Notes under the pieces: model-generated
The model's input: only the letters and a program-made list of their open reading frames with translations
The model's database searches: none
What the model was told of the DNA's origin: nothing
Shown here: one piece after another, positions 5,110-54,560 of the stretch
Layout of the letters: every line of letters begins with the position of its first letter
Numbering within the stretch: the stretch's first letter is position 1
Origin: Halorubrum yunnanense
GTDB taxonomy: Archaea; Halobacteriota; Halobacteria; Halobacteriales; Haloferacaceae
Length of the DNA: 64,000 nucleotides
Reading direction: 5' to 3'
Assembly (NCBI RefSeq): GCF_026586675.1
Contig: NZ_JAODIX010000031.1
Coordinates: forward strand, 1 to 64,000
Program-made: the position numbers and the translations under genes

Positions 5110-6060
5110 GTGTTGATCGGGTCGCCGCTCACCGAACTCTTGCTTCTCGTCGGTGGTGCCGCGCTCCTCTACGCGGGCGCCGAACTGCTCGTCAGGGGGG
5201 CCAGGGACCTGGCGCTCGCCGTCGGCCTGAAGGCGTCGACCGTCGGGGTCACCGTCATCGCGTTCGCGACGACCGCCCCCGAGCTGTTCGTCTCGCTGCT
5301 CGGCGCCGTGACGGTGTCGACGGACGTGGGGCTCGGGACGATTCTCGGGTCGAACATCGCCAACATCGGGCTCGTGCTCGGCGTCTCCGCGCTGATTCGA
5401 CCCCTCGACGTCTCCGACACGGTGTTCGAGCGCCACGTCCCGTTCATGGTCCTCGCCGCGCTGCTCCTCGTCGGGCTCGGGTGGAACGGGCGCATCGGTC
5501 GGCCCGGGGGGCTCCTCATGCTCGGGACGCTCGTCGCGTTCACGGTCGTTGTCATGCGCCGGATCCGGCGGACGCAGTCCAACATCTCTACCGCGGATCG
5601 CGCGGAGATGCCGGACGCGAGCCTCCGCGACATCGCCGCCGTCGTCGGCGGGATCGTCGCCCTCGTGCTCGGCTCGCAGTGGCTGATCGACGGCGGGGAG
5701 TCGCTGCTCTCCGCGGCCGGCTTCTCCGACATCTTCATCGGGCTCACGGTGCTCGCGCTCGGCACCTCGCTCCCCGAGCTGGCGGCGAGCCTCGTCGCCG
5801 CCGTCCGCGGCGAGGCGGAGTTCAGCGTCGGCAACGTCGTCGGGTCGAACATCTACAACGTCCTCGCCGTCATCGGGATCATCGCGGTCATCCGCCCGAT
5901 CGGCGTGAGCGCCGGCGTGCGTGGCTTCGAGTTCCCCGCGCTGCTCGCTTTCACCGCCGTCCTCGTCGGGCTCATGTACCGCGGCGAGCGCATCTCGCGC
6001 GTCGACGGCGCGGCCCTCGTCGTCGGGTACGGAATTTTCGCGTACCTGCTGTTCCCGTGA
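5110..6060 (+). CDS. Calcium/sodium antiporter, CaCA family (YrbG-like)
   Basis: The 316-residue protein has two homologous halves, each with an alpha-repeat holding the ion-binding Glu. The first is VTVIAFATTAPELFVSLLGA with GSNIANIGLVLG after it; the second is LTVLALGTSLPELAASLVAA followed by GNVVGSNIYNVLAVIG. About ten membrane helices are visible. Family members exchange Na+ or H+ for Ca2+ across the cytoplasmic membrane. The start is GTG, supported by the TATA box spacing. The structured repeat element begins about 45 bp after the stop codon. Confidence 0.92.
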   Translation: MLIGSPLTELLLLVGGAALLYAGAELLVRGARDLALAVGLKASTVGVTVIAFATTAPELFVSLLGAVTVSTDVGLGTILGSNIANIGLVLGVSALIRPLDVSDTVFERHVPFMVLAALLLVGLGWNGRIGRPGGLLMLGTLVAFTVVVMRRIRRTQSNISTADRAEMPDASLRDIAAVVGGIVALVLGSQWLIDGGESLLSAAGFSDIFIGLTVLALGTSLPELAASLVAAVRGEAEFSVGNVVGSNIYNVLAVIGIIAVIRPIGVSAGVRGFEFPALLAFTAVLVGLMYRGERISRVDGAALVVGYGIFAYLLFP

Positions 6061-6102
6061 GCGCGGGAAATCTCGCTGGATGGGTGCCTGACGCCTGTAA
6101 CC

Positions 6103-6362
6103 CTTATAAATAGAGCCGAGAATCCGCGGCGGCGCGCGCCTCCGAGTGGCCGCCTCTGGCGGCCGCGAGGAGCGCGTGCGAGGGAGTCAGTCGTCCGGAG
6201 CGAAGCGGAGGACGACTGACGAGGCTGGGGAGGTGTGAGGTGCCGTGCGGTTGCGGTCGGGGTGGGATCCAAAGGGGCAGGCGCGAGGGCGAAGCACGCC
6301 GTAGCAAGCACCGCAGCGAGCGATAGCGAGCGAGGAGCGCAGCAAGGCGCGCGAGCCCTCGC
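6103..6362 (+). ncRNA. Candidate structured RNA element, copy 1 (unrecognised family)
   Basis: A TATA-like box (6103-6112) is followed about 25-30 bp later by a sequence that folds into consecutive hairpins. Hairpin 1: CTCC (6140-6143) and GGAG (6169-6172) enclose symmetric GA/GA dinucleotides and a 9-bp stem (6146-6154 with 6158-6166) closed by TCT. Hairpin 2: an 11-bp perfect stem, 6186-6196 with 6210-6220. A possible third pairs 6283-6290 with 6355-6362. Conserved linkers GTGCGAGGGA and GAGGCTGGGGAGG recur in the inverted copy near 54.5 kb, where both hairpins have different sequences but the same pairing. No convincing protein is encoded. RNA status is inferred from covariation between two copies only. 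Confidence 0.5.
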
Positions 6363-6531
6363 GGCTGGGGCTTTGGAGGTGTTCTCGGCCACAGCGACCG
6401 CAACAACGTATAGCCGAGCGGCTGGGGCTTTGGAGTGGTTCACCGACGGTCCGCTACCGACTATTTATAAGCGAGCGGCTGGGGCTTTGGAGGTGTTCAC
6501 CGCTGATCCGGTATCAGGCAATTACAACCGA
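6361..6531 (+). repeat. Three tandem 57-bp repeats at the 3' side of structured element copy 1
   Basis: Units begin at 6361, 6418 and 6475, each opening with GCGGCTGGGGCTTTGGAG and continuing into a TGTTC- or GGTTC-containing stretch and, in units 1 and 2, an A/T-rich TATA-like segment (around 6408-6412 and 6461-6470) just before the next unit. The inverted element at 54.4 kb carries one equivalent unit. There are no unique spacers between units, so this is not CRISPR. The units lie 100-270 bp upstream of the DTD2 gene. Confidence 0.85.
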
Positions 6532-6627
6532 CCGACTGCTCCCTCAGACCCGCCTGACGCCAACCACGCGACATCGTATCGCGTTCGAACCGACGCCTAT
6601 TCGGCCGCCCGCCCCCGACCGGAGTCC

Positions 6628-34075: not shown

Positions 34076-34148
34076 GGGCGCGTGGCCTAGCGGACAGGGC
34101 GAGAGGTTCCTAACCTCTCGATCGCGGGTTCGAATCCCGTCGCGCCCG
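34076..34148 (+). tRNA. tRNA-Arg, anticodon CCT
   Basis: A complete 73-base cloverleaf: acceptor stem GGGCGCG pairs with CGCGCCC at 34141-34147 and G34148 is the discriminator. The anticodon stem AGAGG/CCTCT encloses TTCCTAA, so the anticodon is CCT, reading AGG. The T arm GGGTTCGAATCCC is perfect. No intron and no encoded CCA. The 3' part is duplicated about 188 bp downstream. Confidence 0.95.
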
Positions 34149-54371: not shown

Positions 54372-54560
54372 ATAAATGGTGACTGGTAGATCTACGGTGA
54401 ACACCTCCAAAGCCCCGCCCGACCGCACCGCGACCGCACCTCGCGCCTCCCCAGCCTCGTCGGGGCGGCGCAGATGCGCCGCGCCGACTCCCTCGCACGG
54501 ACTCCTCGCGCCCGCTGGGCGCTCGGAGGCGTGCGCCACGGCACCGGTTATTGATAAGAC
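54372..54560 (-). ncRNA. Candidate structured RNA element, copy 2 (inverted relative to copy 1)
   Basis: Read on the minus strand, a TATA-like TTATCAATAA (54548-54557) precedes hairpin 1: CTCC/GGAG (plus-strand 54525-54528 and 54502-54505) with GA/GA and a 6-bp stem (54508-54513 with 54517-54522, loop of three). Hairpin 2 spans 54459-54488 (5 bp, one C-C mismatch, 7 bp, loop of four). GTGCGAGGGA and GAGGCTGGGGAGG are identical to copy 1, as is CTTTGGAGGTGTTCACCG near the 3' side, followed by TTTATAAGCG. The hairpin sequences differ from copy 1 but remain fully paired. The 316-bp gap 54296-54611 holds no gene that I can support. Confidence 0.5.

Follow-up and report, generated by a model that had tools for sequence, protein, structure and literature searches.

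We describe an element of haloarchaea for which selection maintains the fold of one strand, in about 115 chromosomal copies per genome and, for its largest domain, P3, throughout the order. The fold itself must matter, because the copies vary freely in sequence yet retain the same elaborate structure. The family is confined to haloarchaea, and the positions and orientation of its copies are largely inherited between species. We consider it probable that the element is an old interspersed repeat of the BOX/ERIC type that functions through its sense-strand fold, most likely as an RNA to which a host protein binds. Counted in favor of this reading were copy number, covariation measured with controls, strand bias, the lack of gene overlap and convergent enrichment, as well as the tandem 57-bp module, shared positions, core exchange, remnants and empty sites, and the lack of a partner gene.

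Extracted copies were aligned for the 3' half (alignment A1, 35 sequences) and the 5' half (A2, 29 sequences), after which covariance models were built for P3 (R1) and for P1/P2 (R2). A full Halorubrum copy is about 300 bp long and is composed of a TATA-like leader, P1, P2, a purine-rich linker, P3 and a 57-bp end unit. Sequence reading places two copies in the window, the 64,000-nt stretch of DNA analyzed here: copy 1 on the + strand (6104-6384 plus tail) and copy 2 on the - strand (54557-54399). Copy 1 begins with the TATA-like box TTATAAAT (6104-6111, +), 27 nt before P1. P1 (6131-6179, +), delimited by fold and covariation, comprises an outer helix, a covarying 3-bp step, an invariant tandem GA/GA and a 9-bp variable hairpin, and is followed by P2 (6186-6220, +), a variable hairpin of 11 bp plus the mini-hairpin GCGAAGC, recognized by its fold. 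The conserved unpaired linker GAGGCTGGGGAGGTGTGAGG (6221-6240, +) is nearly invariant in A2. The P3 arm (6261-6384, +; about 125 nt), identified from A1 and matched by R1 at 132 bits, consists of a CAAAG/CTTTG closure, a lower stem and a ladder of 2-bp steps with GA/GA. The 3' end units (6367-6537, +) are marked in the sequence by GGGGCTTTGG at 6367, 6424 and 6481, a period of 57, with TTTATAA in the second interval, such that two further 57-bp repeats of its 3' end follow copy 1.

In copy 2, P1, P2 and the conserved linker occupy 54440-54537 (-), with an R2 match of 73.8 bits at 54439-54544. Its P3 was lost, since the orthologs of this copy in G007 and G012 retain P3 at the same place; the junction (54399-54420, -) joins GGGCGG to GGCTTTGGAGGTGTTC. 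The preliminary description had reported two opposite-strand copies with differing yet paired hairpins, and these copies and the blocks it quoted are present. Its hairpin sizes are also right: hairpin 1 pairs GTGGCCGCC/GGCGGCCGC over 9 bp in copy 1 and GCGCCC/GGGCGC over 6 bp in copy 2, and hairpin 2 pairs GTCAGTCGTCC/GGACGACTGAC over 11 bp in copy 1 and GTCGG/CCGAC plus GCGGCGC/GCGCCGC (5+7 bp) in copy 2. The TATA-like box that it assigned to each copy exists in both, but that of copy 2, TTATCAAT (54550-54557, -; flank kept in G012 as TTATTAAT), is weak. It treated the motif CTCC-GA...GA-GGAG as identical blocks; the GA/GA is invariant (29/29), but the flanking triplets covary and are not fixed. 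The extent was underestimated: the two copies in the window stand, but the genome holds about 115, and P3, the largest domain, had been overlooked.

Across Halorubrum, the outer helix of P1 reads GCGCGYGC/GCRCGCGC, and the three-base step occurs as UCC/GGA, GGU/ACC, CGU/ACG, GUC/GAC and UGC/GCA. The P2 hairpin varies in sequence and length, and other copies and orthologs have different hairpins in this position. The linker between P2 and P3 reads GAGGCTGGGGAGGYGTGAGG, and a scan with the linker pattern hit more than 118 stretches of public genomes, naming many Halorubrum species, Halobellus and Halorussus. In a copy of G327 (L346:3900-4200), the linker that reads TGCGGTTGCGGTGCGGT in Halorubrum carries a tandem run of GGTGCTGTACGGTAC, and variation by short tandem repeats thus affects this linker as well. 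The inner ladder of P3 is made of 2-bp steps split by GA/GA and other purine loops, and P3 has a fairly constant end (GGGGCTTTC..G.TGTTC). P3 is followed by GGTGTTC and then by the 57-bp unit, which is often in tandem (one to five per copy; a spacing of 57 in 97 of about 139 gaps across the family). The unit reads as the leader joined to the P3 end (TTTATAAnCGAgCGG + CTGGGGCTTTGG), which suggests that it may be a core deletion at a shared GCGG.

In A1, 98.2% of the P3 cells are paired, compared with 27-42% when one arm is slid; two-sided changes occur in 20 of the 30 pairs, and the covariation score is 0.389 versus 0.161 +/- 0.010 for shuffled alignments. P1 is paired in 98.3%, with covariation in 8 of 18 pairs. 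P3 of other genera, represented by 36 distinct sequences, covaries at 26 of 30 pairs and in 247 cells; this alignment had been fitted to the model and is biased in its favor. The GA/GA remains invariant inside these covarying stems, in 29/29 sequences for P1 and in 33-35 of 35 at the P3 ladder sites. A conserved fold with covariation beyond controls, as belongs to a structured non-coding RNA, is thus present. G.T outnumbers A.C by 72 to 5 in A1 and by 47 to 2 in A2 (119 to 7 overall), from which it follows that the strand read here is the folding strand. Either strand folds better than its shuffled versions (z -3.4 and -4.8), so that only the G.T/A.C asymmetry, and not fold energy, decides the strand.

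Using copy 1 as query, blastn returned 57 matches in its own genome (3.17 Mb, 116 contigs), with 40 scored candidates. The search with covariance models, which had been proposed as a check, gave 117 matches for P3 and 108 for P1/P2 at E<=0.001; the genome therefore holds about 115 copies, several of them broken or at contig ends. P3 was detected in 34/34 sampled congeners, most with at least 57 matches, and numbers 0 to 96 copies in other families. In a phylum-wide sample, 41 of 53 genomes from the order carried it and all 242 from outside the order lacked it. P1/P2 in their Halorubrum form are almost confined to the genus, with at most two weak matches per genome elsewhere, although the linkers and hairpins seen in G058, G294 and G213 are related to them. 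Plasmid records yielded a single weak partial match and the phage records searched yielded none; in G022, 59 of 60 matches lie on a 2.94-Mb contig. The element is nearly absent from plasmids and near chromosome-only.

Genes were called by a simple codon-usage script, and none of 88 copies lies inside a predicted gene, in agreement with the earlier statement that no protein-coding explanation fits. Neighboring genes are convergent at 35 of 80 copies versus 9 of 104 gaps without the element (p=6e-8) and divergent at 10 of 80 versus 33 of 104 (p=0.003). Between co-directional genes, 15 copies share the orientation of the genes and 20 have the opposite one, and the element is therefore not part of a 3' UTR in one orientation. 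Apart from orthologous loci and common families, no protein is found repeatedly next to the copies, and no transposase gene was found near them.

At the place of copy 1, eight of 30 genomes carry the element, three carry remnants and the rest, including some close relatives, lack it. Of 20 copies from the three relatives G007, G004 and G012, 13 share their adjoining genes with a G000 copy, and orientation was conserved where checked; the true positional conservation is probably higher, as the comparison covered about three quarters of the G000 copies. The cores of orthologs have a similarity of 0.52-0.84, against 0.84-0.92 for the best paralog, and module types are unlinked (p=0.54 and 0.90; 47 copies, low power). 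The stems seem to move between copies as whole cassettes, and conversion between copies at the conserved linkers would be the simplest reading of these sequences. There were no near-identical element pairs among the G000 copies compared, a 96.9% pair falling outside the elements, and hence there is no sign of recent spreading; recent transposition was rejected on this ground. Empty sites occur in G004 and G059, with intergenic flanks too diverged to define a junction or target-site duplication. Presence and absence differ between species, for which loss is a possible cause as well as insertion, and degenerate remnants and copies without whole arms were seen. In G002, the counterpart of copy 2 (L108:2224-2720, gene-strand reading) is replaced from P1 on by unrelated insertion-sequence-like DNA.

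The copies could instead be genes for a trans-acting non-coding RNA, each with its own promoter in the form of the TATA-like box, that titrate or scaffold one RNA-binding protein, for example; we consider this unlikely. The box is a real and regular part of the element: it occurs at -32..-8 in 50/68 G000 copies, versus 1-2/68 at 60-85 nt further upstream, and in 71/140 other Halorubrum copies, with its first T most often 20-21 nt before P1. Such regularity, at a preferred distance, is what genes with their own promoters should display, and the intricate fold with conserved unpaired purines, the nearly chromosome-only and positionally stable copies and the lack of strand preference relative to genes point the same way. 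However, an archaeal transcript usually starts about 30 nt from the first T of the TATA box, which with the observed spacing predicts a start about 9 nt inside the 5' strand of P1 itself, where that strand ends, and makes it doubtful that the promoter is placed to produce the whole RNA. Three readings offer themselves: an unusually close start, an outer P1 helix that works as DNA, or a box that is no promoter. The strict box is also missing from about a quarter to a half of the copies, whole arms are lost in many, and copy number ranges from 0 to more than 100 among related genera, all of which argues against a set of RNA genes.

That the selected fold is one of single-stranded DNA, with one-strand hairpins that an IS200/IS605-type (Y1) transposase would recognize, on the model of REP/RAYT pairs or PATEs, seems more doubtful still. 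Single-stranded DNA hairpins would equally be expected to give a strand-specific fold, PATEs have near-terminal palindromes without terminal repeats or duplications (PMC3119063), and the fairly constant P3 end described above would suit such a system. Against it, G.T pairs are frequent, P3 often occurs in inverted pairs, unlike IS605 ends, no transposase gene adjoins the copies, recent copies are lacking, and none of Rfam's haloarchaeal omega-RNA families matches the element. Functionless repeats, whose inverted repeats would be perfected by template switching as DNA is replicated, so that compensatory change is only mimicked, are highly improbable. Hairpin modules are exchanged whole and both strands beat shuffled sequence in folding, as template switching would allow, but G.T exceeds A.C by 17 to 1, the single-stranded linkers are conserved, and GA/GA and other purine mismatches persist inside covarying stems. 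This explanation is largely refuted, because the perfecting of palindromes would remove the conserved GA/GA mismatches.

Known families were compared as well. At the gathering score, cmscan with Rfam gave no match for the element in the window or at 18 loci of its own and other genera, a relaxed scan of 6050-6520 gave chance matches only, and a known Rfam family, including sotRNA/omega-RNA, was thereby rejected at both thresholds. The sole Rfam match of the window is a tRNA gene at 34076-34148. The family is novel with respect to Rfam 15, as had been proposed, and published work on repeats of haloarchaea, on MITEs, on vesicle RNAs, on the Haloquadratum transcriptome and on candidate structured RNAs offered no match. 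The preliminary description set a transcribed RNA against a simple repeat; the fold is indeed selected, but the choice is a false one, as the element is an interspersed repeat of about 115 copies. The terminal inverted repeats of an IS or MITE, which it had named together with target duplications as contrary evidence, are not seen in the Halorubrum copies, of which the consensus leader and tail are not inverted. P3 does lie between inverted TGTTCAGATAAG ends in two loci, a MITE-like carrier of about 205 bp (L181:1458-1661, L184:1474-1680), and one such end is present in L192; as a general feature, these terminal repeats were rejected, being limited to three loci of two genera.

The element resembles BOX of Streptococcus pneumoniae (PMC3049150) in its modular build, comparable copy number, tandem module (cf. 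boxB; here the 57-bp unit), potential to form hairpin RNA, and maintenance at many fixed places, and its many intergenic copies are enriched between convergent genes, as reported for BOX, RUP and SPRITE (PMC3049150). BOX differs by its IS-like terminal inverted repeats and its restriction to a few streptococci (PMC3049150), whereas the present element has no such ends in Halorubrum, folds with covariation into a much more elaborate structure that includes the GA/GA ladder, and has a P3 that extends across the order. ERIC and other bacterial MITE-like repeats (PMC2229807) are likewise intergenic and chromosomal and form long stem-loops if transcribed, but ERIC has target duplications and also TA-flanked terminal repeats (PMC2229807), the latter not found here. 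PATEs of Haloquadratum walsbyi (PMC3119063) are also non-coding repeats of haloarchaea that contain palindromes, lack terminal inverted repeats and are prone to core deletions that leave end-only versions; they are set apart by their description as sharing ends with IS605-type transposons (PMC3119063), a link of which the genes next to the copies gave no sign here. Haloarchaeal omega-RNAs/sotRNAs (RF02656, RF02657; PMC12558985) are multi-copy structured RNAs too, but are tied to IS200/IS605 tnpB (PMC12558985), whereas the element has no recurrent tnpB neighbor and scores below the gathering score of both models.

For the BOX/ERIC-like repeat that we favor, the folded strand would act as RNA and a host protein would bind it, reading the conserved linker and the GA ladder. 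Gene conversion at the conserved linkers would pass cores from one copy to another, the initial spread of the family may have been driven by an enzyme supplied in trans and would have largely stopped in Halorubrum, and the preference for gene ends could reflect tolerance and possibly also a role at transcript ends. Kinship with BOX and ERIC is weakened by their terminal inverted repeats and presumed parent IS, neither of which was found for Halorubrum; for a transposable repeat it would be unusual to be nearly missing from plasmids and phages and to have no near-identical copies, and the spacing of the TATA-like box ill suits a transcript containing all of P1. A tentative alternative is a host-functional, order-wide structured RNA family with about 100 chromosomal copies at fixed positions and cores shuffled by conversion, with a role at gene ends or in organizing the chromosome. 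Its new fold would be the alternation of 2-bp steps with tandem GA/GA; we know of no archaeal counterpart of such an RNA family.

About 30 kb of the genome consists of this unannotated element with its plainly selected fold, which is in no RNA library. If it is an RNA, it would be an abundant archaeal structured RNA of new architecture, with a natural set of variants for structure-function work; if it is a repeat only, old positions with cassette-exchanged cores would offer a direct view of archaeal gene conversion. As several copies lie at contig ends, the element disturbs assemblies.

P3 stands alone in some genera and in divergent inverted pairs in others. At L188, L193, L354, L355, L360 and L361, the arms of such a pair lie 15-300 bp apart, each with its own paired stems, and GGCTGGTTGGTCAGCC is often found between the two arms in other genera. 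The 5' foot that P3 has in all families (6261-6279 in the window) reads GGGUGGGACUGAAAG, in Halorubrum GGUGGGACUCAAAG. Haloarchaeal CRISPR repeats have a similar 3' end, GUGGGAUUGAAG, possibly by chance.
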